Assembly: GCA_964019135.1 (NCBI GenBank)
Contig: OZ025256.1
Span: 41,636,035 to 41,700,034 of the forward strand
From: Arenicola marina
Lineage: Eukaryota > Annelida > Polychaeta > Arenicolidae
Reading direction: 5' to 3'
DNA length: 64,000 bases
Every line of letters starts with the position of its first letter. Within the stretch, counting starts at the first letter, position 1. The notes under the pieces are model-generated. The model worked only from the letters and a program-made list of their open reading frames with translations. It did no database searches and was not told where the DNA came from. A program made the position numbers and the translations under genes. Shown here in pieces: positions 130 through 64,000 of the stretch.

Positions 130-3100
130 GTAAGAGGGATTGCCTTAGGGCCGGCTGAGTGCCATAACGGTAGACCGAGTGTCCTAACGGTAGACCGAGT
201 GTCCTAACGGTAGGCTGAGTGTCCATAATGTAGGCTGAGTGTCCGTAAGGCAGACTCAGCGTCCTTAGGGCAGACTCAGTGTCATTAAGGAAGGCTGAGT
301 GTCCTTGAGGCAGGATGTGTCCATAAGGCAGACTGGGTGTATTTAATGTAGGCCGAGTATGTTTAATGTAGGCCGAGTGTCAAGGCAGGCTAAGTGTCCT
401 TAAGGTAGGTTGAGTGTCCTTAAGGCAGACTAAGTGTCCTTAGGGAAGACTGAGTGTCCTTAGGCCAGACTGAGTGTACTTAGGGCAGACTGAGTGTCCT
501 TAAGGCAGCCTGACTGTCCTTGAGGCAGACTGATTGTACTTAGGGCAGACGGAGTGTCCTTAAGGGAGACTGAGTGTCCTTAAGGCAGACTGAGCGTGTT
601 TAAGGTAGGCTGAGTGTCCTTAAGGCAGGCTGAGTCTACCTTAAGTAGGCTTAGTGTCCTTAATGTACGCCGAGTGTCCTTAAGGTAGGCTGAGTGTTCT
701 TATGGTAGACTGCGGGTCCTTAGGGCAGAATAAGTGTCATTAAGGTAGGCCGAGTGTCAAGGCACACTGGGTGTCCTTAAGTGTGTTTAAGGTAGACTGA
801 TTGGCTTTAAGGTAAGCTGAGTGTCAAGGCGGACTGCATGTCCTGACGGTAGGCTAAGTGTCCTAACGCTATGTTGAGTTTCCTTAAGGTAGGCTCAGTG
901 TCCTAAGGGCAGACAGAGTTCTCATAATGTAGGTTGAGTGTCCTTAGGGTAGGCTCAGTGATCTTAAGACAGGCTAAGTGACCTTAGGGTAGGCTAAGTG
1001 GCCTTAAGGTAGGCTGAGTGTCCTTAAGGTAGGGTCAGTGTCCAAAGGGCAGACATTGTCCTTAGGGTAGGCTGATTGTCCTTAAAGTAAGCGTGGTGTC
1101 CTTAAGGTAAGCTGATCGACTGTCCTTAAGGTGGGCCCAGTGTCCTAAGGGCAGACAGGGTGCCCTAAAAGTATGTTGAGTGTCCTTAAGGTAGGCTGTG
1201 TCTACCTTAAGTAGGCTTAGTGTCCTTAATGTACGCCGAGTGTCCTTAAGGTAGGCTGAGTGTCCTTATGGTAGACTGCGGGTCCTTAGGGTAGACTAAG
1301 TGTTCTAAGAGCAGACAGAGTATCCTTAAATTAGGCTGAGTATCCTCACGGTAGGCTGAGTGTTTTTAAGGTAGGTTGAGTGTCCTCAAGACCGACTGAG
1401 TGTCCTTTAGGTAGGCCGAATGCCAAGACAGAGTGCGTGTCCTTAAGGCAGATTGAGTGTCTTTAAGGTTGGTTGAGTGTCCTTAAGATAGGCTCCGTGT
1501 CCTAAGAGCAGACAGAGTGTCCTTAAGGTAGGCTGAGTGTCCTTAAGGTAGGCTGAGTGTCCTTAAGGTAGGTTGAGTGTCCTTAGGGCAGACTGAGTGT
1601 CCTTTCGGTAGGCTGAGTGGCTTATAGCAGCCTTAAGGCAGCCTGAGTGTCCTAAGGCTGTAGGATACAGTTGTTCTACGTATGTTTATATATTGGGTAG
1701 GCATATATGTTTACAGAACAAAATAATGTAAAAAAGGGCGAGGTCACCATGTTATATTTATTTTACCGCGCTGTCAACATCACGTGTTATATACAATATG
1801 CCATTGAAACACATCACATTTTGCCATATTTTAACCTAGGATCTGATGAGGGGCCTCTCATTGAAACGTTTTGTAACGAGTATTTTGTACCTTTATAACG
1901 AGCATGGTGAATTTCTTTCCACTTTTGAGCTCAGTATATAATGCTCTTCAATTGTTGTAAATATTATACAAATCTAGAAAACAAATGCATCATACATCTA
2001 AGTTGACGCAGGATGAGTGCCTTAATGTTGACTGAGTCTCAGTGCGGCAAATCATGACCGAGTGAGATAAGGCTATATGGAGCCCCACTCTTCTTCACAC
2101 TATTATCTGTCACTTGCGGGTTTTGACATCTCACCTCGGTCTAATGCTTATAATAAGGAAATGAGCGGTGTTTACATTATGAAGCATGCTGAAGTCGGTC
2201 TGTTTGTCTGACATGGCAGACTGCGCGCGGCCGAAGCGTGATCTCATGGCCTCGCCCACCGATAACCAGTTCATGCCAATGTCGCCCCCCTCCCTGGCCC
2301 GCTGTGACGACGGACTCTGTCTGGACGTCAACAAGTGGTGTGACAGCGTCGTTGATTGCGCGGACTCCAGCGACGAGCAGCCGGGCTGCTCCAGAGGTCA
2401 GTATAGAGGTCAGATCTACCATGACCTCAAGGGACAGTTCCTCCTGACACCAGAGGTCAGTGCCCCTGACCATAGAGGTCAGCGTTCCTTGACGTCAGAC
2501 GTGTTATCAATGGGACCTCAGAGGTCAGTACCCCTGACCTTAGAGGCCAGAGTTCACTGACCTCAGACTTGTTATCAATAGGACCTCAGAGGTCAGTGAC
2601 CCTGACCTGAGAGGTCAGAGTTCACTAACCTCCAACTTGTTATCAAGAGGATCTCAGAGGTCAGCCTTCCCTTGCCTTAGAGGTTATCGTTCGCTAATAC
2701 CAGAGGTCAGTACCGCTGACAGCAGAAGTCAGTGGCCCCTGACCCCAGAAGTCAAAGCCCCTGACCAGTGACCTCCTACGATCATCACGGTCAACTATTT
2801 GTGGATGAAGTTTATATATTTGATATCCAATGCTGTGTTTATATATTTGATATTAACCATGTGTTTATACATTTAATATTTACCATGTGTTTATAATTTG
2901 ATATTTACCATGTGTTTATACATTTGATATTTACCATGTGTTTATGCCTTTGATATTTACCATGTGTTTATATATTTGATATTTGCCATGTGTTTATGCA
3001 TTTGATATTTACCATGTGTTTATATATCTGATATTTACCATGTGTTTATATATTTGATATTTACCATGCGTTTATAATTTGATATTTTCCATGTGTTTAT

Positions 3101-6100: not shown

Positions 6101-9100
6101 AGTGATACATGCCTCTCATACGCGCTGAGAGGGGCCGGACCGGTAGTTCAGTGGGACTCACTGCGAGCGCTCTAGCCACCTGAGAGCCTAACGGCACGTT
6201 GATCGGTGGTTCGCGGCAAGCTGTGGCCGTGTCTGTGTGGTCGCAGGATAACGATCCAATGTTCTTCTTCGTAAAGAGTAGGGGGCAACCCCCGGGGACA
6301 TGGCTCCACTCTCCCTTCTATCTCCCGTAGACACGATATGACCAAAAGTGGTTAAAGCGTCCTGGTTGGTTATACAACCAACCAGCCATCGCGTATGCGA
6401 GCCATGTATGAGAGCCATGTATGAGAGCCATGTGTGAGAGCCATGTATGAGAGCCATGTGTGAGAGCCATGTGTGAGAGCCATGTATGAGAGCCATGTAT
6501 GAGAGCCATGTGTGAGAGCCATGTATGAGAGCCATGTGTGAGAGCCATGAATGAGAGCCATGTATGAGAGCCATGTGTGAGAGCCATGTGTGAGAGCCAT
6601 GTATGAGAGCCATGTATGAGAGCCATGTATGAGAGCCATGTATGAGAGCCATGTATGAGAGCCATGTGTGAGAGCCATGTGTGAGAGCCATGTGTGAGAG
6701 CCATGTATGAAAGCCATGTGTGAGAGCCATGTGTGAGAGCCATGTGTGAGAGCCATGTGTGAGAGCCATGTGTGAGAGCCATGTATGAGAGCCATGTGTG
6801 AGAGCCATGTATGAGAGCCATGTATGAGAGCCATGTATGAGAGCCATGTGTGAGAGCCATGTGTGAGAGCCATGTGTGAGAGCCATGTATGAGAGCCATG
6901 TGTGAGAGCCATGTATGAGCGCCATGTATGAGAGCCATGTATGAGAGCCATGTGTGAGAGTCATGTATGAGAGCCATGTATGAGAGCCATGTGTGAGAGC
7001 CATGTATGAGAGCCATGTATGAGAGTCATGTGTGAGAGCCATGTATGAGAGCCATGTATGAGAGCCATGTATGAGAGCCATGTATGAGAGCCATGTATGA
7101 GAGCCATGTATGAGAGCCATGTATGAAAGCCATGTATGAGAGCCATGTGTGAGAGCCATGTATGAGAGCCATGTATGAGAGCCATGTATGAGAGCCATGT
7201 ATGAGAGCCATGTATGAGAGCCATGTGTGAGAGCCATGTATGAGAGCCATGTGTGAGCCATGTGTGAGAGCCATGTGTGAGAGCCATGTATGAGAGCCAT
7301 GTATGAGAGCCATGTATGAGAGCCATGTATGAGGGCCATGTGTGAGAGCCATGTGTGAGAGCCATGTGTGAGAGCCATGTATGAGAGCCATGTATGAGAG
7401 CCATGTGTGAGAGCCAGGTATGAGAGCCATGTGTGAGAGCCATGTGTGAGAGCCATGTATGAGAGCCATGTGTGAGAGCCATGTATGAGAGCCATGTATG
7501 AGAGTCATGTGTGAGAGCCATGTATGAGAGCCATGTATGAGAGCCATGTATGAGAGCCATGTATGAGAGCCATGTATGAAAGCCATGTATGAGAGCCATG
7601 TGTGAGAGCCATGTATGAGAGCCATGTGTGAGAGCCATGTATGAGAGCCATGTATGAGAGCCATGTATGAGAGCCATGTGTGAGAGCCATGTATGAGAGC
7701 CATGTGTGAGCCATGTGTGAGAGCCATGTGTGAGAGCCATGTATGAGAGCCATGTATGAGAGCCATTTATGAGAGCCATGTATGAGGGCCATGTGTGAGA
7801 GCCATGTGTGAGAGCCATGTGTGAGAGCCATGTATGAGAGCCATGTATGAGAGCCATGTGTGAGAGCCAGGTATGAGAGCCATGTGTGAGAGCCATGTGT
7901 GAGAGCCATGTATGAGAGCCATGTATTAAGGCTACCTTCGTTGGTTCGTTGGTGAAATACATGAGATGGATGTAAAATCCGTGTCTGTTGTTAACGAAGC
8001 AAAATCAGAACGAATGAAGGGTTTTATTGCCGCCTAATAATACAGTACTACCCTCTGCTGGCCGAGCCGTTTACAGTAGGGTGGGTGATTGTATTTAAAA
8101 TGCATGGATGATTTATCCACCAGATAGCGCCACTGTCCCATGTACGTTCTACGGAATTGGGCACGGAATTGAAACTAATCATCCTCCATGGAACCTATTA
8201 GAAGTGCTTATCAAGAAACCAAGGCCACGTGATCTCATAACGTCATTATTGCTGCAGATTGCACAGCGGGGGAGTTCCGGTGTGCTTCCGGTCTTTGTCG
8301 GCCAGGCTATGCCGAGTGCGACGGCAGAAATGACTGCGAAGACCTCTCAGACGAAACCAACTGCGGTAGGTGGAACCATGCGATAAACGCTGAAATTTGT
8401 AGCGAAGTCCAGACCCAATGAATTAGGGGGCGACCCGAATGGTCTGCTAGTCATGGCAACGCTTGCTGGAGTTCGCGCTCCACTGTGCCAATTGCTATGT
8501 TCGTGCAGGTTGAAGAGCAGGTCTTGAATTCTGCCAAGCGCATAGGGGTATGCCCTGTTGCGCTCGAATCCTAAATGAGTCCCGTTGGTGCGTTAGAACT
8601 TTTATATATTATAACCACCAGCCAATCAAATTTACTGGCAGGATAAACGTCATTGTTTTTGCTGCTTAATTTTCTCTCTAGTGTATGACCTGGCCCCGTC
8701 AATTCGAGTCGGCTTCAGCCGAATTTATTTCGCCCTTGAATATGACGTTGGCATAGAGCTGGACGAAATCTTCGGCTCCGGCAGTTTCGAATAAGTTTTT
8801 CATCCTGCAATGTGACCTAGTTTATCGTCTATATGTTTTTCGGCCTGTGATATATGACCTAATTTCTCATCTATATCTGTTTTTCAGTCTGCAATGTGAC
8901 CTAATTTCTCCACTATCTTTGTTTTTTAGTCTGCCATGTGACCTAATTTCTCGTCTATCTCGGTTTTCAGCTTGCAATGTGACCTACTTTCTCGTCTATC
9001 TCCGTTTTTTAGCCTACAAGGTGACCTAATTTCTCATCTATCTGTTTTGCACTCTGCAATGGGGACATAATTTCTCGCCTATCCCTGTTTTTCAGCCTGC

Positions 9101-10357
9101 AATGGGGACATAATTTTTCGTCTATCTCTGTTTTTCAGCCTGCAATGGGGACATAATTTCTCGCCTATCCCTGTTTTTCAGCCTGCAATGGGGACATAAT
9201 TTTTCGTCTATCTCTGTTTTTCAGCCTGCAATGGGGACATAATTGTTCGTCTATCCCTGTTTTTCAGCCTGCAATGGGGACATAATTGTTCGTCTATCCC
9301 TGTCTTTCAGCCTGCAATGGGGACATAATTTTTCGTCTATCTCTGTTTTTCAGCCTGCAATGGGGACATAATTGTTCGTCTATCCCTGTCTTTCAGCCTG
9401 CAATGGGGACATAATTTTTCGTCTATCTCTGTTTTTCAGCCTGCAATGGGGACATAATTGTTCGTCTATCCCTGTCTTTCAGCCTGCAATGGGGACATAA
9501 TTGTTCGTCTATCCCTGTTTTTCAGCCTGCAATGGGGACATAATTGTTCGTCTATCCCTGTCTTTCAGCCTGCAATGGGGACATAATTGTTCGTCTATCC
9601 CTGTTTTTCAGCCTGCAATGGGGACATAATTGTTCGTCTATCCCTGTCTTTCAGCCTGCAATGGGGACATAATTTTTCGTCTATCTCTGTTTTTCAGCCT
9701 GCAATGGGGACATAATTGTTCGTCTATCCCTGTCTTTCAGCCTGCAATGGGGACATAATTGTTCGTCTATCCCTGTTTTTCAGCCTGCAATGGGGACATA
9801 ATTGTTCGTCTATCCCTGTCTTTCAGCCTGCAATGGGGACATAATTGTTCGTCTATCTCTGTTTTTCAGCCTGCAATGGGGACATAATTGTTCGTCTATC
9901 CCTGTCTTTCAGCCTGCAATGGGGACATAATTTTTCGTCTATCCCTGTTTTTCAGCCTGCAATGGGGACATAATTGTTCGTCTATCCCTGTCTTTCAGCC
10001 TGCAATGGGGACATAATTGTTCGTCTATCCCTGTTTTTCAGCCTGCAATGGGGACATAATTTTTCGTCTATCTCTGTTTTTCAGGCTGTATGTAATGTGA
10101 CCGAATTTTTCGTCCATCTCTGTTTTTCAGCCTGCAACGCCTCATCTATGCGCTGCGCCAACTACGTCTGCATGCTGTCAGGCTACTTCTGCGACAGCCT
10201 CAACGACTGCGGGGATGGGAGCGACGAGGAAAACTGCGGTATGACGTCACATCCGGTGTGTCGGGTTGGCCATGCTCCTATTGGAGCTTCAGGCTTCATG
10301 TCAACCTGGATAATGTCTCTCCGATACACTCGCATGCGTGTATCTTTGACGAGGCTC

Positions 10358-10396
<39 letters not shown>

Positions 10397-13300
10397 CTGC
10401 CAAGAATAGGGCGCGTCTATAATCTTTGTGATGTTTATAGTTATATATTGCCAATATTATGTTTGCATTGCGTTGTGGTTTTTTTGGTGTTAGGTTTGCT
10501 GTGGCGTTTACAGTGGGTGTTAACAATGTTGTTTTTACAATGTTATGTTTACAGAGTGTTCGGACAATGAGTTCCAGTGCACCGACCCAGCGGTGTGCAT
10601 CATGGCAGACCACTTCTGTGACGGGGTGTCAGATTGTGCCGATGGCAGTGATGAGCCAGAAAACTGCGGTCAGTGCACCTGTACTAATACACCGCAAACT
10701 TCAAATCAGTACACATGTACTAAGTCATGGATCTAACACAGCGCACCTGCACTAACACATGTCAAACTCGGTACGCGTGTACTAACCCATAGTACACTGA
10801 AACAGTGCAACTGTACCAACACATAGCGAGCGCTGATTCTGTGTCTCTGTACGAGCGAGTACAAAGCGCCAAACCATACTAACACATGACAAGTTTCAAC
10901 TCAGAGCACCGCTACTAAAATGTATCCTTGTATTCTGAATGGTATGTTTACTAGACAGAATTGCTTATACGCATCCATACCTCCACCGTAAAACAATTAT
11001 ATAGAATTCTATAGCATAAATTACTGATGTAACCCTAGAGTAGTAATTAATACGTTGGTATTGTGAACTCTTTTTGAACTTCGAGACTAAACTAATGGAA
11101 ATATTTACATAATGCATATCAGAAACTGGTGATTACAGTTCAGCAAAACAGTTTATAGCAATATATCACGCCCAATGCATGGGGTGGTTTGTCCTGTGAG
11201 CTCACAGAAGTAGATTCGTGTAGTGTTGAGGCGATCATTCACTCTAAACTGTTTTCTGTTGCAGTTGAAATGTGTCTGGAGGGACAGATCTCTTGCGACG
11301 GGCGCTGTGTCGGCCAAAGTTACATATGCGACGGTCGTGCCCACTGTTTAGACTTCATGGACGAGAAAGACTGCAGTCAGTACTGTCTTATACCTCCCAC
11401 TCGGTATTGTCTTATTGACTTAATAACCTCCCACTCGGTATTGTCTTATTGACTTAATAACCTCCCACTCGGTATTGTCTTATTGACTTAACAACCTCTC
11501 ACTCGGTATTGTCTTATTGACTCAATAACCTCCCACTCGGTATTGTCTTATTGACTTAATAACCTCCCACTCGGTAATGTCTTATTGACTTAATAACCTC
11601 CCACTTGGTATTGTCTTATTGACTTAATAACCTCCCACTCGGTATTGTCTTATTGACTTAATAACCTCCCACTCAGTATTGTCTTATTGACTTAATAACC
11701 TCCCACTCGGTATTGTCTTATTGACTTAATAACCTCCCACTTGGTATTGTCTTATTGACTTAATAACCTCCCACTCAGTATTGTCTTATTGACTTAATAA
11801 CCTCCCACTCGGTATTGTCTTATTGACTTAATAACCTCCCACTCGGTATTGTCTTATTGACTTAATAACCTCCCACTCAGTATTGTCTTATTGACTTAAT
11901 AACCTCGCACTCGGTATTGTCTTATTGACTTAATAACCTCCCACTCGGTATTGTCTTATTGACTTAATAACCTCCCACTCAGTATTGTCTTATTGACTTA
12001 ATAACCTCCCACTCGGTATTGTCTTATTGACTTAATAACCTCCCACTCGGTATTGTCTTATTGACTTAATAACCTCCCACTCAGTATTGTCTTATTGACT
12101 TAATATCCTCCCACTCGGTATTGTCTTATTGACTTAATAACCTCCCACTCGGTATTGTCTTATTGACTTAATAACCTCCTACTCGGTATTGTCTTATTGA
12201 CTTAATAACCTCCCACTCAATATTGTCTTATTGACTTAATAACCTCCCACTCGGTATTGTCTTATTGACTTAATAACCTCCCACTCGGTATTGTCTTATT
12301 GACTTAATAACCTCCCACTCAGTATTGTCTTATTGATTTAATAACCTCCCACTCGGTATTGTCTTATTGACTTAATAACCTCCCACTCGGTATTGTTTTT
12401 ATATTGACTTAACCTCCCACTCAGTATTGTCTTATTGACTTAATAACCTCCCACTCGGTATTGTCTTATTGACTTAATAACCTCCCACTCAGTATTGTCT
12501 TATTGATTTAATAACCTCCCACTCAGTATTGTCTTATTGACTTAATAACCTCCCACTTGGTATTGTCTTATTGACTTAATCACCTCCCACTCGGTGTTGT
12601 CTTATTGACTTAATAACCTCCAACTCGGCATTGTCTTATCGACTTAATAACCTCCCACTCGGTATTGTCTTATTGACATAATAACATCCCACTCAATATT
12701 GTCTTATTGACTTAATAACCTCCCACTCAGTATTGTCTTATTAACTTAATAACCTCCCACTCAGTATTCTCTTATTGACTTAATAACCTCCCACTCGGTA
12801 TTGTCTTATTGACGCAATATTCTCCCACGGAGATGAACACTGGAAGCTCTAATCCTGTAACGGACTTCAGAATATTGGTAGTTAAGCGAACACTTCAAAC
12901 ACATGTATATACGCAGGGTGTGCATTTTATATGTTGAGTTATATAGCATGTTCATGCATACAAAGTACTATAGTTATAGCACAGATACATGTATTCCGAA
13001 AAGAAATATCTGTCAATTACTTATCACTCAAGCATGTCTTTCCCCGAAGCGATATGTCGGCATGTATCCGTACACTACAAAAAAGGATCGCTCACAACGC
13101 GTAGAGAAACTTTCGAAATACATGGGACTTGTTTGTCGGACACAACGCACGTGGAAGGCCTTTTTTCGCCACATAATCAGATAGAAGCAACAGTGACGTG
13201 AATGAATGATTGACATCCTGGACCGGTCTGTTGATCTCAAAAGCCGTTTACATTTGGAGGTTGATTGAGACGGTACGGTATTATTGTATGGTATTCTTAC

Positions 13301-16300
13301 TACTCTAGCTGTGTGTCTGTGTACCCTGTACTGATGATTACAACAAGGTGACAAGCACTCATGCCCTCAATGGTGCTTCCCTCCTCTCTTCAGATTGTCC
13401 CCTGGACCACTTCCGGTGTGCTAACGGCCTGTGTCGGCATGAGAAGAGCTGGTGTAACGTGGCCCAGGACTGTGTCACAGACCAGAGTGACGAGCCGGTT
13501 GGCTGTGACCAGGGTAAGGTGGGGGTCTGACATCAGGTTTAAGAGGTGGTGGGGCGGAGGGGGTGGACATGGATAAGCCGGTTGGCTGTGACCAGGGTAA
13601 GGTGGGGGTCTGACATCAGGTTTAAGAGGTGGTGGGGGGGAGGGGGGTGTGGACATGGATAAGCCGGTTGGCTGTGACCAGGGTAAGGTGGGGGTCTGAC
13701 ATAAGGTTTAAGAGGTGGTGGGGCGGAGGGGGGTGTGGACATGGATAAGCCGGTTGGCTGTGACCAGGGTAAGGTGGGGGCTGACATCAGGGTCAAGAGG
13801 TGGTGGGGGGGAGGGGGGTGGACATGGATAAGCCGGTTGGCTGTGACCAGGGTAAGGTGGGGGTCTGACATCAGGTTTAAGAGGTGGTGGGGGGGAGGGG
13901 GGTGTGGACATGGATAAGCCGGTTGGCTGTGACCAGGGTAAGGTGGGGGCTGACATCAGGGTCAAGAGGTGGTGGGGGGGAGGGGGGTGTGGACATGGAT
14001 AAGCCGGTTGGCTGTGACCAGGGTAAGGTGGGGGTCTGACATCAGGTTTAGGAGGTGGTGGGGCGGAGGGGGTGTGGACATGGATAAAACGGAGGGCTGC
14101 GACCAGGGTAAGGTGGAGGTCTGGCATTTGGCTCAGGAGTGTCTGTGTCTGTGTGCGTGTGTGTCAGGTGGGTGGGGGGTGGGGATGTGTGAGGTGGGGG
14201 TGGGGATGTGTGCGGGGGGGGGTGGGGATGTGTGAGGTGGGGGTGGGCATATGTGCGGTGGGGGGTGGGGATGTGTGAGGTAGGGGTTGGGGATGTGTGA
14301 GGTGGGGGTGGGGATGTGTGAGGTGCGGGTGGGGGATGTGTGAGATGGGGGTGGGGATGTGTGAAGTGGGGGGTGGGGATGTGTGAGGTGCGGGTGGGGA
14401 ATGTGTGAGGTGCGGGTGGGGGATGTGTGAGGTGCGGGTGGGGGATGTGTGAAGTGGGGGGTGGGGATGTGTGAGGTGGGGGTTGGGGATGTGTGAGGTG
14501 GGGGTGGGGATGTGTGAAGTGGGGGGTGGGGATGTGTGAGGTGGGGGTTGGGGATGTGTGAGGTGGGGGTGGGGATGTGTGAGGTGCGGGTGGGGGATGT
14601 GTGAGGTGGTGGTGGGGGATGTGTGAGGTGGGGGTGGAGGGTTGTGACCAGGGTAAAATGAAGGTTGGAGGCGTGTCTGGGATCGAGATGAAGCATACAA
14701 GATTTAGCCCATTCTCATGCTATTATGATTGATATAACATATTCGAATACTGAATAAATCGTTTAATCAAAAGCAAGGTTGCCAACACGATACATACAAA
14801 TGCATAAATGCGAAAGTTGCCCTGTCTAGACCATGACAAAATGAGGTGTTGATGTTTTTTTTTGTATATTAAGCAATATTTATTTAAAGTAATATGTTCT
14901 GCAATCAAAATTGTGTATTACCAACCTCTTCTCCATGTCAAATATGTATATTCTGTCTTGAATTTAAGTCCTGAAAGCCTGTGGGCTATCTGTGGGAAAG
15001 CAAATCTATTCACCGGAGCAGAATTTGGTGGCCGGTTTTATATCCCTGCACGCCTGTTTGCTGTTCGGTATTCTGTGTCATGTCGACCGCGGCTCCCTAG
15101 GACGTCCGCGCGCGATAAAATAGTCCGCGCAGCTTTATGTTGAAATTCTTGTTTTACAAACTCAACGAGATATAAAACATATGCATCATAGCTTTGAGAT
15201 ACATTCATTATTGATTCTAAAATGTAAAAAAATCTAGCATGGCGCTTGTAAGTAGGTTGCTTTAAAGAGGTTTGCAACAACGAGTACACACCTTAATGCT
15301 AACCCCAATGTGTTGATGTTGCAGCCTGCCCCTTGACCTACGTGAGATGTGAAAATACCCAGGAGTGTGCCCACCCCATTTCTGTCTGCAGTGGCTTTGT
15401 GGACTGCACTGGTGCAGCTGCAGACGCCATAGACTGTGGTAAGTACTCTATTCCCACATGTACCGCCAATAAGACAAAACTGCTTCGCCAGGCCTGCAGC
15501 TTGGCAATAGACCGATCCAGGCTGTCAAACCTTCACTGACAACCAGGTTGCTTTCATCCGATTATGTGGTGCAAAACAAGTTTTCCACATGCGTTAGATC
15601 GGACGAATAAATCGGCCAGACAAAGCAACATGTCACTTTGTTGTCAGTGTCAGAGATGAATACTGTTCACTTGTACCATCAGCTATGATTGTCAATTTCA
15701 TATTCACTAGTAAAGAAAAAGAACTTAAGGAGGTTCCCGGCATCACTGTGGCGCCATCTGGTGGACTATGCCGCTGCGATCTGGCGAAGTAAAGGGAATT
15801 TGATAGGCAAAGGCAAGTCCAAGCAAACTAAAGAACTTATAGGGCATGCAAGTGAATCTCGTTTTATGTGTGCGATAACACACGAGATCAGATTTTGGGG
15901 ACAACGTAGGCTGGGAACCGGCCTAGAGCTGCTCGCAGCATACTAGGCCGGTAACTAGTAATTGTTAAGCCTCCGTGATTGGTCGAGCGCCAGTTGTCGT
16001 GCAGATGCTATGGCAAGCCAAAATGAATTTTCATATCTTCAAGAAATTAACCGTAAAATTGTTGTATACATGTCTTTACATGAGTTGGACATATGTCCTA
16101 TTATTTAAAACCATATTACAATGTGACGTAAATTGGATAATAATTTGGATTTCACATAGCATATGAAACAGAGAGATTAGGAATAGAGAGACATTGAATT
16201 CGTTTGCCGGGAGGAGGATATTTTGGCAAATATTATACGAAGCTGATGTCGGCCTCGTCGTCATTACTGGTTATAATTGTGTTGACGAAACGGAAACATT

Positions 16301-49300: not shown

Positions 49301-52300
49301 CCCGAGACACTGCTGCCTGTGTATGACCTGCCTGCCGTCCTGTCCTTACCTCACCTTACCTCCCGAGACACTGCTGCCTGTGTATGACCTGCCTGCCGTC
49401 CTGTCCTTAGCTCACCTTACCTCCCGAGACACTGCTGCCTGTGTATGACCTGCCTGCCGTCCTGTCCTTACCTCACCTTACCTCCCGAGACACTGCTGCC
49501 TGTGTATGCCCTGCCTGCCGTCCTGTCCTTGCCTCACCTTCCCTCCCGAGACACTGCTGCCTGTGTATGACCTGCCTGCCGTCCTGTCCTTACCTCACCT
49601 TACCTCCCGAGACACTGCCGCCTGTGTATGACCTGCCTGCCGTCCTGTCCTTACCTCACCTTACCTCCCGAGACACTGCTGCATGTGTATGACCTGCCTG
49701 CCGTCCTGTCCTTACCTCAGCTTACCTCCCGAGACACTGCTACCTATGTATGACCTGCCTGCCGTCCCGTCCTTACCTCACCTTACCTCCCGAGACACTG
49801 CTGCCTGTGTATGACCTGCCTGCCGTCCTGTCCTTACCTCACCTTACCTCCCGAGACACTGCTGCCTGTGTATGACCTGCCTGCCGTCCTGTCCTTGCCT
49901 CAGCTTACCTCCCGAGACACTGCTGCCTGTGTATGACCTGCCTGCCGTCCTGTCCTTACCTCACCTTACCTCCCGAGACACTGCTGCCTGTGTATGACCT
50001 GCCTGCCGTCCTGTCCTTACCTCACCTTACCTCCCGAGACACTGCTGCCTGTGTATGACCTGCCTGCCGTCCTGTCCTTGCCTCACCTTACCTCCCGAGA
50101 CACTGCTGCCTGTGTATGACCTGCCTGCCGTCCTGTCCTTACCTCACCTTACCTCCCGAGACACTGCTGCCTGTGTATGACCTGCCTGCCGTCCTGTCCT
50201 TACCTCACCTTACCTCCCGAGACACTGCTGCCTGTGTATGACCTGCCTGCCGTCCTGTCCTTGCCTCACCTTACCTCCCGAGACACTGCTGCCTGTGTAT
50301 GACCTGCCTGCCGTCCTGTCCTTGCCTCACCTTACCTCCCGAGACACTGCTGCCTGTGTATGACCTGCCTGCCGTCCTGTCCTTGCCTCACCTTACCTCC
50401 CGAGACACTGCTGCCTGTGTATGACCTGCCTGCCGTCCTGTCCTTACCTCACCTTACCTCCCGAGACACTGCTGCCTGTGTATGACCTGCCTGCCGTCCT
50501 GTCCTTACCTCACCTTACCTCCCGAGACACTGCTGCCTGTGTATGACCTGCCTGCCGTCCTGTCCTTACCTCACCTTACCTCCCGAGACACTGCTGCCTG
50601 TGTATGACCTGCCTGCCGTCCTGTCCTTACCTCACCTTACCTCCCGAGACACTGCTGCCTGTGTATGACCTGCCTGCCGTCCTGTCCTTACCTCACCTTA
50701 CCTCCCGAGACACTGCTGCATGTGTATGACCTGCCTGCCGTCCCGTCCTTAGCTCACCTTACCTCCCGAGACACTGCTGCCTGTGTATGACCTGCCTGCC
50801 GTCCTGTCCTTACCTCACCTTACCTCCCGAGACACTGCTGCCTGTGTATGACCTGCCTGCCGTCCTGTCCTTACCTCACCTTACCTCCCGAGACACTGCT
50901 GCCTGTGTATGACCTGCCTGCCGTCCTGTCCTTACCTCACCTTACCTCCCGAGACACTGCTGCCTGTGTATGACCTGCCTGCCGTCCTGTCCTTGCCTCA
51001 CCTTACCTCCCGAGACACTGCTGCCTGTGTATGACCTGCCTGCCGTCCTGTCCTTACCTCACCTTACCTCCCGAGACACTGCTGCATGTGTATGACCTGC
51101 CTGCCGTCCTGTCCTTACCTCACCTTACCTCCCGAGACACTGCTGCCTGTGTATGACCTGCCTGCCGTCCCGTCCTTAGCTCACCTTACCTCCCGAGACA
51201 CTGCTGCCTGTGTATGACCTGCCTGCCGTCCCGTCCTTACCTCACCTTACCTCCCGAGACACTGCTGCCTGTGTATGACCTGCCTGCCGTCCTGTCCTTA
51301 CCTCACCTTACCTCCCGAGACACTGCTGCCTGTGTATGACCTGCCTGCCGTCCTGTCCTTACCTCACCTTACCTCCCGAGACACTGCTGCCTGTGTATGA
51401 CCTGCCTGCCGTCCCGTCCTTACCTCACCTTACCTCCCGAGACACTGCTGCCTGTGTATGACCTGCCTGCCGTCCTGTCCTTACCTCACCTTACCTCCCG
51501 AGACACTGCTGCCTGTGTATGACCTGCCTGCCGTCCTGTCCTTACCTCACCTTACCTCCCGAGACACTGCTGCCTGTGTATGACCTGCCTGCCGCCCTGT
51601 CCTTGCCTCACCTTACCTCCCGAGACACTGCTGCCTGTGTATGACCTGCCTGCCGCCCTGTCCTTGCCTCACCTTACCTCCCGAGACACTGCTGCCTGTG
51701 TATGACCTGCTTACCGTCCTGTCCTTACCTCACCTTACCTCCCGAGACACTGCTGCCTGTGTATGACCTGCCTGCCGTCCTGTCCTTACCTCACCTTACC
51801 TCCCGAGACACTGCTGCCTGTGTATGACCTGCCTGCCGTCCCGTCCTTACCTCACCTTACCTCCCGAGACACTGCTGCCTGTGTATGACCTGCCTGCCGT
51901 CCTGTCCTTACCTCACCTTACCTCCCGAGACACTGCTGCCTGTGTATGACCTGCCTGCCGTCCTGTCCTTACCTCACCTTACCTCCCGAGACACTGCTGC
52001 CTGTGCATGACCTGCCTGCCGTCCCGTCCTTTCCTCACCTTACCTCCCGAGACACTGCTGCCTGTGCATGACCTGCCTGCCGTCCTGTCCTTACCTCACC
52101 TTACCTCCCGAGACACTGCTGCCTGTGTATGACCTGCCTGCCGTCCTGTCCTTGCCTCACCTTACCTCCCGAGACACTGCTGCCTGTGTATGACCTGCCT
52201 GCCGTCCTGTCCTTACCTCACCTTACCTCCCGAGACACTGCTGCATGTGTATGACCTGCTTGCCGTCCTGTCCTTACCTCACCTTACCTCCCGAGACACT

Positions 52301-55300
52301 GCTGCATGTGTATGACCTGCCTGCCGTCCCGTCCTTACCTCACCTTACCTCCCGAGACACTGCTGCATGTGTATGACCTGCCTGCCGTCCTGTCCTTACC
52401 TCACCTTACCTCCCGAGACACTGCTGCCTGTGTATGACCTGCCTGCCGTCCTGTCCTTACCTCACCTTACCTCCCGAGACACTGCTGCCTGTGTATGACC
52501 TACCTGCCGTCCTGTCCTTGCCTCACCTTACCTCCCGAGACACTGCTGCCTGTGTATGACCTGCCTGCCGTCCTGTCCTTGCCTCACCTTACCTCCCGAG
52601 ATACTGCTGCCTGTGTATGACCTGCCTGCCGTCCCGTCCTTACCTCACCTTACCTCCCGAGACACTGCTGCCTGTGTATGACCTGCCTGCCGTCCTGTCC
52701 TTGCCTCACCTTACCTCCCGAGACACTGCTGCCTGTGTATGACCTGCCTGCCGTCCTGTCCTTACCTCACCTTACCTCCCGAGACACTGCTGCCTGTGTA
52801 TGACCTGCCTGCCGTCCTGTCCTTACCTCACCTTACCTCCCGAGACACTGCTGCCTGTGTATGACCTGCCTGCCGTCCTGTCCTTACCTCACCTTACCTC
52901 CCGAGACACTGCTGCCTGTGTATGACCTGCCTGCCGTCCTGTCCTTACCTCACCTTACCACCCGAGACACTGCTGCCTGTGTATGACCTGCCTGCCGTCC
53001 TGTCCTTACCTCACCTTACCTCCCGAGACACTGCTGCCTGTGTATGACCTGCCTGCCGTCCTGTCCTTACCTCACCTTACCTCCCGAGACACTGCTGCCT
53101 GTGCATGACCTGCCTGCCGTCCTGTCCTTACCTCACCTTACCTCCCGAGACACTGCTGCCTGTGTATGACCTGCCTGCCGTCCTGTCCTTACCTCACCTT
53201 ACCTCCCGAGACACTGCTGCCTGTGTATGACCTGCCTGCCGTCCTGTCCTTGCCTCACCTTACCTCCCGAGACACTGCTGCCTGTGTATGACCTGCCTGC
53301 CGTCCCGTCCTTACCTCACCTTACCTCCCGAGACACTGCTGCCTGTGTATGACCTGCCTGCCGTCCTGTCCTTACCTCACCTTACCTCCCGAGACACTGC
53401 TGCCTGTGTATGACCTGCCTGCCGTCCTGTCCTTACCTCACCTTACCTCCCGAGACACTGCTGCCTGTGTATGACCTGCCTGCCGTCCTGTCCTTACCTC
53501 ACCTTACCTCCCGAGACACTGCTGCCTGTGTATGACCTGCCTGCCGTCCTGTCCTTATCTCACCTTACCTCCCGAGACACTGCTGCCTGTGTATGACCTG
53601 CCTGCCGTCCTGTCCTTGCCTCACCTTACCTCCCAAGACACTGCTGCCTGTGTATGACCTGCCTGCCGTCCCGTCCTTACCTCACCTTACCTCCCGAGAC
53701 ACTGCTGCATGTGTATCACCTGCCTGCCGTCCTGTCCTTACCTCACCTTACCTCCCAAGACACTGCTGCCTGTGCATGACCTGCCTGCCGTCCCGTCCTT
53801 ACCTCACCTTACCTCCCGAGACACTGCTGCATGTGTATCACCTGCCTGCCGTCCTGTCCTTGCCTCACCTTACCTCCCGAGACACTGCTGCATGTGTATC
53901 ACCTGCCTGCCGTCCTGTCCTTACCTCACCTTACCTCCCGAGACACTGCTGCCTGTGTATGACCTGCCTGCCGTCCTGTCCTTACCTCACCTTACCTCCC
54001 GAGACACTGCTGCCTGTGTATGACCTGCCTGCCGTCCTGTCCTTACCTCACCTTACCTCCCGAGACACTGCTGCCTGTGTATGACCTGCCTGCCGTCCTG
54101 TCCTTACCTCACCTTACCTCCCGAGACACTGCTGCCTGTGTATGACCTGCCTGCCGTCCTGTCCTTACCTCACCTTACCTCCCGAGACACTGCTGCCTGT
54201 GCATGACCTGCCTGCCGTCCTGTCCTTACCTCACCTTACCTCCCGAGACACTGCTGCCTGTGCATGACCTGCCTGCCGTCCTGTCCTTACCTCACCTTAC
54301 CTCCCGAGACACTGCTGCCTGTGCATGACCTGCCTGCCGTCCTGTCCTTACCTCACCTTACCTCCCGAGACACTGCTGCCTGTGTATGACCTGCCTGCCG
54401 TCCTGTCCTTGCAGTGTGTAATGCGGACAAGAGTGCCTTGTCCCTGCTGGACCTGCGGCCGTTCGTCGCCATGCCCATGGAGCCTCTGTTTCGCTGTGGT
54501 GACGGGATCGGGTGTCAGCCCCTGTCCGCCCACTGTGACGGCATCCTGGACTGCCAGGATGGCAGCGACGAGGAAAACTGTATCCAGAACGTCGGTAGGT
54601 GGCACCACTGTTGTCTCGCTAACTGTAGTTGTGCCGTAGTCCAGATATTTGCCGTTCAATAGCAAAGTAATAATTATGACAAAAGTAATAATTATGACAA
54701 AAGTAATAATTATGACAATAATACTAATTATGACAAAAATAATAATTATGACAAAAGTAATAATTATGACAATAGTTATAATTATGACAAACGTAATAAT
54801 TATGACAAAAGTAATAATTATGACAATAGTAATAATTCTGACAATAGTATAATTACGACAATAATAATAGTAGTAATTATGAAGATAATCATAATAATAA
54901 TGTAATAATGGCAATAGTAATAATGACAATAATGATAATGATAGAGGCTGCACCATTAATGGTATTTAACCACAGCCCGTCGCCTTACGGTTTAACTCCT
55001 GTATTTATCCACACACTCAATACAGCCTGTCTCTATTAAGGTGCATCACACCCCTGTATATCTCGCAGGCTGTCCCCCTGACTTCTTCCGATGCGCCCAG
55101 AGCGACAAGTGTGTGCCCCCCGAATCCCGATGTGACATGTGGCCGGACTGCGGTGACCCCAGAAGGCCGCCGGCTGACATCGACTTCAGCGACGAGCTCT
55201 CCTGTCGTGAGTTACGGTCCTGCATCTGAAGCTGCTTGCTGCAATGATGTCGTTATGTGAAGTTTTATTCTGGTCTCGTGAGCTGGCATTGCGGTCTCGT

Positions 55301-58300
55301 GAGCTTTCATCTCTGTCTCGTGAGCTTTCCTTTCGGTCTCATGAGATATCATTGCGGTCTCGTGACGCACTATATTTGGTCGCGGGATGCGTACGTGATT
55401 TCGTGGAGCGCGAGGTTTAGTCACGTTATACGTCATCGTGACCGGCGAATGCGACGTTGTCATTGGCCAATTAATTTGTTTGTATATGCATCTGAGATAC
55501 TTCAGTAGATGACGTGATTTAATGGCGTTCTGTTGATTTGTTGAATTGATCTGAAATAGAAACATTAATCTATCTGTTATGTAATGTTATATAATGCTTG
55601 TTAGTAAATTGGTTCTTGTTTATGAGACGTTTCTGCAACGTTAGTATGTCAGATCGGATCTAGGGGGGGTTAGTGTGGGCGGTTAGTTATGGCGGTTGCA
55701 ACCCCCCCGCCCCCTTGGGAACTTAAACATACATTGTAAAAGTCGGGTTCTCCGAGCACCCGCTCCCCGGTCGCAAGTTTTCATAGAGCCCCCCCCACCC
55801 TTCCCCCTTTGCAAATTTCTAGATCCGCGCGTTTATATTGGTTTGTTTTGTCCCCCAGCATGTCCTCCCACCATTGACTTCATTGGGCTGATGGCCGCGG
55901 CCCTGCCAGAATACCTGGCCGCCCTGGCGAACGAAACCAGCACCACACCCCCCACTGCCACCCCCAACACCACCACACCCGGCACTTCCAACACCGTGCC
56001 ACCAGCAACGCCCCCCGCCACGGGCACAGCCGCCACCCCCGCGACTACCATCCCCACCCCCGCGGCGCTAGGGGGCATGACGTTCTCGGCCATTTTCGCC
56101 ATGGCAACCAACACGTCGCCACCCATGCCGCCCCCGACGCCCGGCCCCCCTCTGCCCCCTACCGACGCGGCGTTATACCACCTCCCCTGGTGGTGGGTGG
56201 CATTCTTCTCACGAGTCGACCCCGTCGACTACATGACTGTGGACTTCACCGCGTGGGGGCAGCACTGCAGCAACGGGTACTGTATCCACGACAGCCAAGT
56301 GTGTGACGGCCGGCCAATCTGCCCGGACGACAGCGACGAGGGCTGCAGCACTCCCCCGGGTAGGTCCCGTCATTGCACGCCCACCCAGCTCTCGAACCCC
56401 AGCTATTTGTCGTGTGGCGACCCCTATGAGTTCAAGCAAAATGTTCTGTAATTTCTATATTAATGAAGCAATGAAACAGTAGCGTTTCATATCGTTTGTG
56501 TCCATATGAAGGCTAGATTAATCATTTGATTGAATAATCAAAATTCCTGAACAAAATTAGTCCCATTTGTTAGAAATCAAGCAGAAACATGTGCTCAATT
56601 TTCAGATTATTCATGATTTAAAATGATTATTCATGATTTAAAGTGATTCTTCATGATTTAAAATGATTCGTAATGATATAAAATAAGTTTTCCTAATTTA
56701 AAATAATTGTTCATGATTTGAAATGATTTAAACAGCTTTTTCATTATTTTAAATTATTTTTCAGTGTGCGGGACCGACATGATACCGTGTAACAACACTG
56801 TGTCAGGTCGATGTCTGTACCCGTGGCAGATCTGTAACGGCTACATAGAGTGCTCTGACGGCGAGGATGAGAGTGGTTGTGGTGAGTGAGCGTGAGACCG
56901 GGGCACCATTTTGTATTAACAGTGTGTGCAGTCCAAAAAGCAATCAGAAATAATAATTGTGTGCCTTCATTAATAGATGTATTGTTTCTTAATGAAAGCT
57001 AATGACAATATGCATTATTATTATTATCAGCCGTGATATTTAATTTACCCATCAAAGGCGCGGATCCAAGATTTCATCAATGGGTGACAGGTGAAGGGGA
57101 ATGAATTTGTCAATAGGCGGGAGGGAGGGGGGGGGGGGGAGGGGGGGTAGGGCGGGGTGACAATTTGAAGAATAAGAATCGTCTATCGATAGAGCCATTG
57201 CTTCTAACACCGCTCTTCCCTCCCTTCTTTCTCCCGTTGACGCGATACGACCAGGATTGATTTGAGTGTCATGAATATACAACCAACCAACCAATCTAAC
57301 CTCGGCTGCACCATGCTCTCGGATACCAGGGGCATGCGCAGAAATCGATTTCAAAAGTTCATATCTTATCTCGTGCTTTTGTCTCAATGCTCTCAATTTC
57401 AAAAACGTATTTTTGTTTCACGGCGTTCACGGTGAAAGGCAGTTAGAGGCAACTTTTTCAGCAGGCTTTAGCGACCTTTTTTTGGCAATATATTAATTGA
57501 TATGGCATTGCGTTGTTGTAGTGTGTGCGGCTCATGAGTCGCGGTGCTCGGCGATGGGACCCTGTGTGAGAAACTCGTACTTCTGCGACGGCTATAGCAA
57601 TTGTCCTAACGGGGAGGATGAGCAGGGATGCCGTAAGTAACTGACTGGTATCACAATCATAAGTAACTGACTGGTACCCCTGTCGTAAGTAACTGGCTGG
57701 TACTCATGTCGCAAGTAACTGGCTGGTACCCCTGTCGTAAGTAACTGGCTGGTACCCCTGTCGTAAGTAACTGGCTGGTACCCCTATCGCAAGTAACTGG
57801 CTGGCACTCCTGTCGTAAGTAACTGGCTGGTACCCCTGCCGTAAGTAACTGGCTGGTACCCCTATCGCAAGTAACTGGCTGGTACCCCTATCGTAAGTAA
57901 CTGACTGGTATCACAACCATAAGTAACTCACTTGTACCCCTGTCGTAAGTAACTGGCTGGTACCCCTGTCGTAAGTAACTGGCTGGTACCCCTATCGCAA
58001 GTAACTGGCTGGTACCCCTATCGTAAGTAACTGGCTGGTATCACAACCATAAGTAACTCACTTGTATCCCTGTCGCAAGTAACTGGCTGGTACCCCTGTC
58101 GCAAGTAACTGGCTGGTACCCCTGTCGTAAGTGACTGGCTGGTACCCCTGTCGTAAGTAACTGACTGGTACCCCTGTCGTAAGTAACTGGCTGGTACCTC
58201 TGTCGCAAGTAACTGGCTGGTACCCCTGTCGTAAGTAATTGGCTGGTACCCCTGTCGTAAGTAACTGGCTGGTACCCCTATCTCAAGTAACTGGCTGATT

Positions 58301-61300
58301 GATACCCCTGTCGTAAGTAACTGACTGGTACCCCTGTCAAAATAACTGGCTGGTAGAAACTATGCAATGTCAAGGATCTCATGCTCAAATAGTTTTAATT
58401 ATTATGTTTATGCTTCAGCTTGCAAAGGAGACCAATTCACCTGCGACAGTGGCAAGTGTATTAATGCGAGCGAGAGGTGTAACTTCGAACATGATTGTGG
58501 GGACGACGACTGGAGCGACGAACTCGGATGTAGTAAGTATAACCTACCATACAGCTCCAGTCTACGTGGGAGGCTGCCCGGTAGCTCAGTGGGTCAGATC
58601 GCTCGCCACCTGAGAGCCTAACGGCACGTGAATCGGTGATTCTAGCCCCGCCGCGGCCATATATGTGTGGTGGCAGGATAAAGATCCCATGTCCTTCTTC
58701 GCAAGAAGTAGGGGGTTACCCCCCGGGGATATGGCTCCATTATCCCTTCCTTCTCCCCGCGACGCGATAGGACCAAACGTGGCTAAAGCGTCCTGAATAT
58801 ACAACCAACCAACCAGTTTACTTGATGCGGTGGGGCTTGCTCGTCAGATTCAACATGGGTCGTATTGTGAGACCCATGGCTAGCGTTACAGGCGTGAAAT
58901 GTCAGGGCACGACACTTGGCGGCAGAGACGTGTCACCATGATACAGAGCGTGTCATGTCACGTTACCGCAGCCGTCTACCAATCTCAAGAGAGCGTTTGA
59001 CGCACGACACCGGAAACGAGCGACGCCGTCATTCAAATGACCTTGACGTTTTGGATACTTTATCGCGAAGAAGGCTATGTGACAAGGCATGCATTAAAGC
59101 AATATGTTCTGTAATTTTTATATTATCAATCTCGTCTCCATGTCAAACAAGTATATTCTTTCTTGAATTTAAATCTTAAAAGCCTCTGGTCTATACGGAG
59201 AGAAGCAAATTTGTTCACCGGAGCAGAAGTTGGTGGCCGGCTTTATATCATTGCGCGCCTGTTCGCTGTCCGTATTCTGTGTGATGTCGACCGGAGCTCG
59301 CTAGGACGTTCGCGCGCGATAAACCATTTCGAGCAGTTTTATGTTTAAATTGTTGTTTTACAGGCTCAACGAGATATGAAGCATACATGCATCTAAATTT
59401 TGACATACTTTTACTCTTGATTCTAAATTGTTAGATTGCAAAAAACCTAAATGACGCCTGTAAGTATATTGCTTTAAACACCAACAACAATCACAAATGT
59501 GATTCTAAGTATCAAAATTAGACACTTATTAATGAGTTGATATGAAATGTCGAAAATAGCTCTATAAGAAAATTGAAGTGAAATTAATTGGTGTCATTTA
59601 TTTATGACCAGCCTGTAGGATGAACCAGTTTTTGTGCGGACCTGACACTGACAACCAAGTATGCGCCAATGAAGACCAGTTTTGTGACCGCCGATCGGTC
59701 GACTGCCCAAGCAGCTACGACGAACAAGTCACGTGTGGTAAGTATGTGTAACGGTCGGACTGTACATTCAAGATATTATGTCTATTAGCTTCCCGATAGC
59801 CGTCTGGCTATTCTGATTTCTTAAGTCCTGATTTCTTAATCGATTGAATTGTGAATATCGGACCCCGTATGGTAAAGTCTATCAAACCGGGGTCCCATCT
59901 ACCTCGCCATACAACTACACTCTGTCGATCGACCGCTGAAAACAAGGAGAGGGGTCCCTACTTGATAATTTCATAGAAGCTTTAATATACAAGATATTTT
60001 ATCTATGTTTCTTGGTTAATTTTTTAATTTTAAACGATTGCCCATTGCACTCAGTCAGTATGAAGTGTGATAAAGTTGTTATTCTTCTGTTTGCATTCAG
60101 ATACGCTATGCCGCACGGGCCAGATGTCATGTGACGGGAAGTGTATACCTGCCAGTGCCCGCTGTGATAGCATAAGAAACTGCAAAGACTGGTCTGATGA
60201 AATCGGTTGCAGTGAGTAACAAATCAACCCCCCCCCCCACTCCCACCCCCCTATTTTGATATTGGACTATTCCTATACTTAGCGTCCAAGGGTGTTTATA
60301 CTTTGCATTGTCCGTACTTGGTATGACGTAGTACGCAAGAATCATCGCGGTGTTTCTTTGACGTAACCCATACGCAACACCGAGTCTGGACCCGCATTCT
60401 GTACCATGGGTTTTACTGCTTGACATTCGCTAGAGAATATATAACCTTTGAAACTGATTATAATATGGTTAATAGACGTTCATCGACTGAACTGAACTTT
60501 CCAACAGTATAAAAACCGCTCCATTCTTCAGGCGTAAATTTTGCTCCTCGCGATGTTTCCCACTTTGTTTCATTATTTCTTACCGGACGCAATTCAAGGA
60601 TCAAGCGTTGATACACAATATTACACACTCATTTTGATGTTACCACAGCATGTAGTTCACTTCACCCGACCTCTTGCAATTTAGACCCCCTTTCCAAATT
60701 CTCCAGCTTCTTGTTAGTGAGTGGGTTAAACTGTAAAAATCTGCAACATTAATCTTGATGTTCGATCATTTGTTTATTTGGCCCGATACAGCCAGTTCGT
60801 GTTTGCAGAAAGGTGGCCTGGTACACCAATCTATCCACCCTTTAATCCATCCATGAATCCATCTATCCACATTTGACACTCTGTCGTTGACATTCAGCTT
60901 GCGGACTGAACGACTTCGCGTGCGGTAACGGCGTTTGTCTCTCCCGGAAGTACTGGTGCGACGGGGACTTCAACTGCCCGGACTTCACGGATGAACCTGA
61001 AAACTGTCTCTCTCGTAAGGCGCTCGTTCCCTGCCTCTCTCTATTCTTCAATTGCCTCAGTGGTAAGGCGCTGGTTCTCCTCGATCTCCACCACTCGGTT
61101 TTTAGATTTTGACCTTGCTTTTAAAATTTATCACTAGGTGCATTATGTAAATATGAATTACCGTTAACCGAATATCGATGATTATCAGAGTATAAAGAAT
61201 ACACATTACAGCGTAATGACTAATGGTGAGTGCAGGGTCTCGCTATATGTTAAAATGTAAATCGTTTCAAAATATCTGGCATGCAGGGCATTTTCTTGTT

Positions 61301-63373: not shown

Positions 63374-64000
63374 GTAAGTCTTCAACGTGGTAAGGGATGC
63401 ACCGACCGATGGCGGAGGGTAAGTCTTCAATGTGGTAAGGGATGCACCGACCGATGGCGGAGGGTAAGTTTTCAATGTGGAAAGGGATGCACCGACCGAT
63501 GACGGAGGGTAAGTTTTCAATGTGGAAAGGGATGCACCGACCGATGGGGGAGGGTAAGTCTTCAATGTGGAAAGGGATGCACCGACCGATGACGGAGGGT
63601 AAGTCTTCAACGTGGTAAGGGATGCACCGACCGATGGCGGAGGGTAAGTCTTCAATGTGGTAAGGGATGCACCGACCGATGACGGAGGGTAAGTTTTCAA
63701 TGTGGAAAGGGATGCACCGACCGATGGCGGAGGGTAAGTCTTCAATGTGGTAAGGGATGCACCGACCGATGGGGGAGGGTAAGTCTTCAATGTGGTAAGG
63801 GATGCACCGACCGATGACGGAGGGTAAGTCTTCAATGTGGTAAGGGATGCACCGACCGATGGGGGAGGGTAAGTCTTCAATGTGGTAAGGGATGCACCGA
63901 CCGATGACGGAGGGTAAGTCTTCAATGTGGTAAGGGATGCACCGACCTATGTCGGAGGGTAAGTCTTCACCGTGGTAAGGGATGCACCGACCGATGGCGG
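63374..64000 (+). repeat. 45-bp donor-anchored array running to the window end
   Basis: About 14 units begin at the donor of protease 2 exon b (GGGGATG|GTAAGTCTTCAA). Each carries GGGTAAGTCTTCAATGTGG and a preceding GATGGCGGA or GATGGGGGA that mimics the exon end. All units keep GTAAGT. The array continues past 64000. Confidence 0.97.

Follow-up and report, generated by a model that had tools for sequence, protein, structure and literature searches.

Do minisatellites in the introns of this gene grow out of exon borders, so that their units come to carry copies of the neighboring splice site? The question was raised by a reading of the letters alone (the sequence-only reading) of the window, a 64,000-nucleotide stretch of DNA at C9:41,636,035-41,700,034, in a 43.4-Mb contig whose end is about 1.7 Mb away; the assembly totals 867 Mb. 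The mitochondrial COX1 of the assembly is 91% identical to that of Pilargis wolfi (Pilargidae, Phyllodocida, Annelida), and the named matches that follow it, among the 120 listed, are annelids. The window contains part of one plus-strand gene with LDLa repeats and two trypsin-like domains, whose exons were placed manually by visual inspection, with domain grammar and splice signals as guides; exons 1 and 44 of the model are the first and last visible in the window.

19-63373, plus strand: 44 predicted exons, non-contiguous, based on a stop-free spliced open reading frame, phases, and splice sites

The spliced reading frame of this model encodes 2077 amino acids, with no stops, agreeing phases, and GT/AG sites. 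A Pfam scan of two stretches of the model identified LDLa (PF00057) and trypsin (PF00089) domains in the first stretch (840 amino acids) and a trypsin domain (PF00089) in the second (146 amino acids). The best two database matches of the gene were nematode LDLa/trypsin proteins, and part of the first trypsin-like domain gave matches to serine proteases of solved structure. Trypsins usually carry the motifs TAAHC and GDSGGPL. The first trypsin-like domain (window 21953-32359) has TSASC and HSMGEPL at these positions and may be an inactive protease, because the usual motifs are absent; the second retains TAAHC.

TRF returned 57 rows for the window, corresponding to 38 non-redundant arrays, 36 of which were inside complete introns. 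At least 25 bp of array was present in 25 of the 43 introns of the model, and arrays accounted for 22,348 of 57,127 intron bp versus only 158 of 6,228 exon bp, the deepest overlap of any array with an exon being 49 bp. Array density was 34.4% in the surrounding 264 kb, whereas five 10-kb stretches sampled at random, exon-poor and used for array density only, gave 14.3, 3.0, 9.1, 4.4, and 26.7%; the region is therefore repeat-rich even by the standard of this genome. Other kinds of repeat are also present. Intron 14 contains an LTR element (window 22455-27402) with an intact minus-strand Gypsy-type open reading frame of 1342 amino acids (22820-26848), for which the best database match was to Priapulus (61%); its 233-bp direct repeats are 99.6% identical (one mismatch), and its insertion was therefore recent. 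A short interspersed repeat occurs at window positions 6140-6314, 37216-37420, and 58577-58745, with many more copies in the flanks, and looks tRNA-derived; Rfam at gathering thresholds and ARAGORN with the bacterial code made no call, including for this repeat. Pieces of a dispersed family, up to ~400 bp long and 77-92% matching, occupy parts of several introns and also occur in the flanks.

14882-15262, 39221-39700, 42136-42400, 59094-59431, and 62452-62978: dispersed repeat family

The sequence-only reading had listed ten strong cases in which an array with its exon's own splice site in the unit begins or ends exactly at a junction. Five of them have the neighboring splice site in the unit.

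13493-14127, plus strand: exon 11 donor array (donor 13514), ~86-bp unit, ~7 copies
57632-58355, plus strand: exon 36 donor array (donor 57633), 26-bp unit, ~28 copies
63364-64000, plus strand: exon 44 donor array (donor 63374), 45-bp unit, at least 14 copies, continuing past the window end
8795-10137, plus strand: exon 8 acceptor array (last intron base 10130), 43-bp unit, ~31 copies
32781-33113, plus strand: exon 18 acceptor array (last intron base 33064), 80-bp unit, ~4 copies

For each of the 17 junctions claimed by the sequence-only reading, we aligned the junction ±25 nt to its own intron with gaps and compared the score with those of 60 letter shuffles; the claims at 45928 and 56605 were read as acceptors 46007 and 56764. 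The exon 11 unit includes the last 21 nt of the exon and the donor, and this junction had a gapped score of 92, compared with a maximum shuffle score of 26, and an ungapped 40-mer that recurred at 40/40. The exon 18 array reaches 49 nt into the exon, with a gapped score of 95 and a 40-mer recurring at 39/40, and the exon 44 array takes in 10-13 nt of its exon. The consensus of the exon 36 array opens with the last base of the exon followed by GTAAGT, and thus includes only one exon base. The exon 8 unit contains TTTTTCAG and the first 7 nt of the exon; identity to consensus was 0.75-0.81 in the first five units of this array and 0.76 in the last, with an inner mean of 0.95, which we read as the probable mark of an old junction copy that later expanded in its middle. 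The other arrays checked for unit divergence had little gradient of that kind at the junction end.

In the remaining five strong cases, the splice site was carried partly (2397, 11376, and 29184) or the array merely abutted the junction (43557 and 54414). The following list gives these five, together with two of the weaker cases and one duplicate, at exon 40, that the sequence-only reading did not include.

2397-2790, plus strand: exon 2 donor-side repeats, with the short motif AGAGGTCAGT spanning the junction
11376-12828, plus strand: 34-bp array starting 16 bp into intron 10, from TRF and gapped alignment
29184-30870, plus strand: exon 16 array of ~32-bp units, beginning one base after the first donor base (span +1 to +25)
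43557-45376, plus strand: intron 29 array of ~83 copies of a 22-bp unit without a donor, with its start 10 bp inside the intron
47089-54414, plus strand: 61-bp array, 120 copies, 97% matches, 7.3 kb, with its TRF end 4 bp before the intron end
31690-32240, plus strand: exon 17 acceptor copies, diverged and dispersed, at the 31690s, the 32090s, and the real site (last intron base 32223)
28457-28770, plus strand: exon 15 weak donor duplicates in G-rich sequence, 40-mer 29/40, marginal gapped score of 35 versus 34
61003-61082, plus strand: exon 40 two-copy donor duplicate (donor 61015)

At donor 2397, the gapped score was 26 versus 22 for an alignment spanning positions -6 to +7. The 11376 alignment spans -2 to +16, and its copies carry a degenerate donor. 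At 54414, the alignment ends 2 nt short of the exon, and the 61-bp copies have a pyrimidine tract and no AG at the matching place. The weaker cases also divided. Acceptor 32223, listed originally as 31690, stood, with a 40-mer match of 31/40 at 32072 and a gapped score of 46 (span -25 to +18), and donor 28457 stood marginally; the 10669 repeat, which begins two bases past the first donor base, and those at acceptors 46007 and 56764 lie on the intron side only, and junctions 130 and 55207 gave no gapped match that beat the 60 shuffles. Overall, 15 of the 17 junctions exceeded all shuffles. The expectation that the array consensus would align across the junction held, with at least 4 nt spanned on both sides, for seven (2397, by a short match; 13514; 28457, marginally; 63374; 10130; 32223; and 33064), the other ten falling short of this span. 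In an ungapped 40-mer test, 10 of 87 junctions had a better match in their own intron than elsewhere among the model's introns (junction 130 by the smallest margin, 22 to 20), as did 0 of 87 in the inverted-strand control; the donor 61015 duplicate, a candidate from this ungapped test, scored 25/40 against a best of 22 in other introns.

The units themselves are unrelated to each other, as the sequence-only reading had stated. Among 26 arrays of the gene, cross-similarity was limited to one pair, formed by two adjacent arrays, and the units of 5 of the 26 matched elsewhere in the 264 kb, none of these five being junction-spanning. Several independent arrays with unrelated units thus contain a splice site, and the earlier view that no single mobile repeat had spread is sustained.

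How many decoy splice sites do these arrays hold? We called a decoy comparable if it scored within 2 bits of the real site, using scores derived from the gene's own sites. There were 109 comparable decoys in the ten arrays or duplicated regions, rather than the hundreds that had been proposed; they were present in nine of the ten regions and in all five spanning arrays, and included donors and acceptors. Array-by-array values were 26 acceptors at exon 8, 23 at exon 44, 13 donors at exon 36, one at 54414, and none at 11376; 19 of the 109 were at 29184 and 32223, where the real site is itself weak. Use of any of 105 of these 109 decoys would introduce an in-frame stop into the extended exon, and we therefore infer, from frame, domain grammar, and stops, that the exon-proximal site is the one used. 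With a stricter cut (scores no lower than the lower quartile of real sites, applied to all arrays of score ≥300), the sense strand of the arrays had 43 donors and 44 acceptors; the other strand had 25 acceptors and 214 donors, of which 207 lie in the 47089-54410 array. The abundance of antisense sites indicates that repeats create splice-like sites without any link to splicing, and the 207 donor-like sites on the reverse strand of a single array illustrate how easily decoys are made by chance.

Outside this gene, we looked at LDLa exons on C20 (loci L027 and L029) and C3 (L030), a sample of 15 model-predicted exons with 30 junctions. Candidate duplicates extending 4 nt or more on each side of the junction were found at two of the 30 (L029 donor 5951 and L030 acceptor 3572), and a further candidate at L027 acceptor 3992 covers the AG and 2 exon nt; all three exceeded 100 shuffles. 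Two other L027 donors had intron-side duplicates only. The exons that carry the two spanning duplicates, in L029 and L030, measure 122 and 110 nt; neither length is divisible by three, as most LDLa exon lengths here are, and one additional L029 exon is oddly long; for these reasons, some exon borders in L029 and L030 could be wrongly placed. A copy of the exon at L027:3992 is present on C139, a 13.6-kb contig (L028). Over the ~340 bp compared, the two copies are distinguished beside this acceptor by exactly 72 bp, equal to three 24-bp units, and by one substitution; the 24-bp array sits between two acceptor copies and not across the acceptor. Longer matches between L027 and L028 are 94-99% alike, and a ~2.6-kb stretch of L028 is unmatched. 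L028 is probably a haplotig of L027, although the pair may be paralogues instead of haplotypes. A query of the genome with exon 34 of the window gene returned one full-length copy, at the window itself, with no second full copy in the assembly to compare as an allele. Dense minus-strand repeats at G000:C7:32082740-32088547 are ~70% identical to the Thr/Pro-rich part of exon 34 and perhaps belong to a mucin-like repeat gene.

Are arrays concentrated at exon borders? When arrays were placed at random inside introns, a null that forbids the birth of an array across a junction, 7 of 36 arrays were within 5 bp of a junction or crossed it, compared with 1.0 expected (p=6e-5), and to this extent the predicted enrichment of array edges over random intron placement was borne out. 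When the seed was allowed to overhang the exon, however, spanning arrays in the window came close to chance, with 4 observed and 4.3 expected using best-scoring periods, which in several arrays are multiples of the basic unit and raise the spanning expectation, or 2.5 expected using the smallest periods (p=0.24). Under the same null, 7 arrays started 0-20 bp from a junction versus 2.8 expected (p=0.017). The result therefore depends on the null: if an array is allowed to originate across a junction, the apparent attraction to borders is much reduced, and the idea of a process that starts at exon-intron borders was overstated.

We enlarged the sample to 264 kb by adding 100 kb on each side, where exons were predicted by a finder tuned on the window. 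At a threshold of 20, this finder made 38 predictions on the plus strand of the window, of which 36 overlapped known exons and 31 were exact, and 8 on the other strand, an accuracy that is optimistic because tuning and testing used the same exons. Addition of 59 predicted flank exons (118 junctions) to the window set gave 206 junctions, for which we observed 10 spanning arrays versus 6.2 expected (p=0.10) and, with stricter settings, 9 versus 4.7 and 7 versus 3.3 (p ~0.05 each). There were 12 arrays 0-20 bp away versus 4.4 expected and 17 arrays 101-200 bp away versus 21 expected, making array edges 3.4-fold denser in the nearer interval (p=0.002). Eight of 88 window junctions had their 40-mer duplicated in the vicinity, after a match of 133938 to 134369 was dropped from an original nine because it was the next LDLa exon's own donor, and so did 8 of 118 flank junctions, which unlike the window set were counted without removal of paralogous exons; none of the 206 had an inverted duplicate. 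The non-exonic background was 33% per base uncollapsed and 4.2% with one unit counted per array. Relative to the latter, 16 of 206 junctions represents an excess over the 8.6 expected (p=0.013; raw count of 17 of 206, p=0.006; flanks alone, p=0.12), with p-values that are uncorrected for multiple tests and rest partly on predicted exons and on a transposon-diluted background. Because exon predictions, dilution of the background by transposons, and the several tests blur the result, an approximately two-fold excess at junctions is plausible but not secure. Across the genome, a tandem GTAAGT pattern was no more frequent than its reversed control (402+391 versus 1380+873).

We favor the explanation, with a probability of about 0.72, that these are ordinary intronic minisatellites of a repeat-rich annelid stretch, in which some duplications covered a junction by chance and selection pinned the array edge. 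Evidence for it includes the units that carry a splice site at five junctions, the lack of relationship among units, the high array content of introns and of the region, the window counts of spanning arrays under the overhang null, the homogenized interior of the exon 8 array, the stops that decoys would add, the candidate duplicates in other genes, and the commoner occurrence of nearby duplicates at non-exonic bases of the 264 kb (33%) than at junctions (16 of 206). Short tandem duplications would arise widely in non-coding DNA by slippage or repair and then change by unequal exchange. If one covered a splice junction, the exon-facing copy would retain its role in splicing and the others would become intronic, which is the anatomy displayed by the arrays; selection on the exon would allow growth only into the intron, leaving one edge fixed at the junction, and the true site would be the exon-proximal one, nearly all comparable decoys adding an in-frame stop. 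The rate of such hits at junctions may be roughly double that at other non-coding points, an estimate that is still insecure. This residual excess counts against chance and selection acting alone, which do not predict it, and would be accounted for if exon-intron borders, as mutational hot spots, were especially prone to tandem duplication, for instance because of breaks that are transcription-coupled or R-loop-linked, or because of short matches between exon ends and intron starts. The density of array edges at 0-20 bp, the duplicated junction 40-mers, and the 1.6- to 2.1-fold excess of spanning arrays in the three whole-region settings all point to such hot spots, but spanning arrays in the window showed no clear excess, the flank junctions alone were non-significant, arrays far from exons are diluted by the transposons in the background, the finder that supplied 118 of the 206 junctions had its tuning and its testing on the window gene alone, and the eight flank matches may include paralogous exons. 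We regard border hot spots as unlikely on balance.

Selection might instead have kept the arrays as functional decoys or regulators of splicing, and the presence of up to 26 sites of similar strength beside one junction fits that proposal; the in-frame stops that 105 of 109 decoys would cause, the unrelated units, and the lack of any usable splice site in the arrays at 43557, 54414, and 11376 make it very improbable. Copy numbers of long arrays are difficult to assemble, so repeats could have been inflated as an assembly artefact, yet array copies differ by many substitutions, the exon 8 array decays in an orderly way toward both ends, and exon 34 has its single full-length copy in the genome; an artefact is an even more distant prospect. 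Seeding by an Introner-like mobile element that carried splice sites would leave related sequence in many introns, and the single cross pair among 26 arrays, with no junction-spanning unit matching elsewhere in 264 kb, renders this origin scarcely credible. Chance coverage of junctions combined with selection on exons thus remains our preferred account.

The mechanism we propose can be likened to that of the amphioxus "mirages", and the sequence-only reading, which knew of no named system like this one, had overlooked them. As described in PMC3087553 and PMC3902484, mirages occur in Adh3, TnC, the globin genes BflGb6 and BflGb9, and PGBD5, and share with the worm arrays both tandem units across exon-intron boundaries, at 5' and 3' ends, and many copies that carry splice signals. 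Here, five arrays have units that span a boundary (57633 by its one exon base), and donor and acceptor boundaries are both affected, with splice signals in the copies; the worm arrays look like a new annelid case of mirages of the amphioxus type. According to the same papers, mirages vary in length between haplotypes, and in BflGb6 the array ends are excluded from homogenization; the exon 8 array, with its diverged ends and homogenized interior, resembles the globin mirage portrayed in PMC3087553. The repeats of the PGBD5 mirage are described as imperfect. The host differs, being an annelid rather than a cephalochordate, and, unlike mirages, several unrelated arrays occur in one gene, with spanning units of 26-86 bp and up to ~31 copies. 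Transcript data reportedly show regular splicing for the Adh3 and globin mirages, whereas the worm arrays are known from sequence only. Among the matches listed in the open-licence literature, there was no annelid report of boundary-spanning minisatellites. A broader claim, that splice junctions in this annelid are hot spots of minisatellite birth, about two-fold or more above other intron DNA, and that splice-site-copying arrays arise repeatedly across genes, enlarge introns, and are convergent with those of amphioxus, is tentative and somewhat doubtful.

Two other systems bear on the comparison. Human internal tandem repeats at exon-intron boundaries, which are variable and alter gene structure, have a similar placement in the account of PMC2812944 (2009), where such repeats in recent paralogues give novel introns or alternative transcripts; the worm frame, by contrast, points to an exon that is unchanged beside an intron that has grown. 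The Rogers model of intron gain by tandem genomic duplication, as cited in PMC3087553, likewise duplicates splice-signal sequence, but here it is existing introns that enlarge. Boundary-spanning minisatellites are found here in a phylum far from amphioxus, several of them in a single gene, and offer natural tests of how the spliceosome selects one site among tens of near-identical neighbors.
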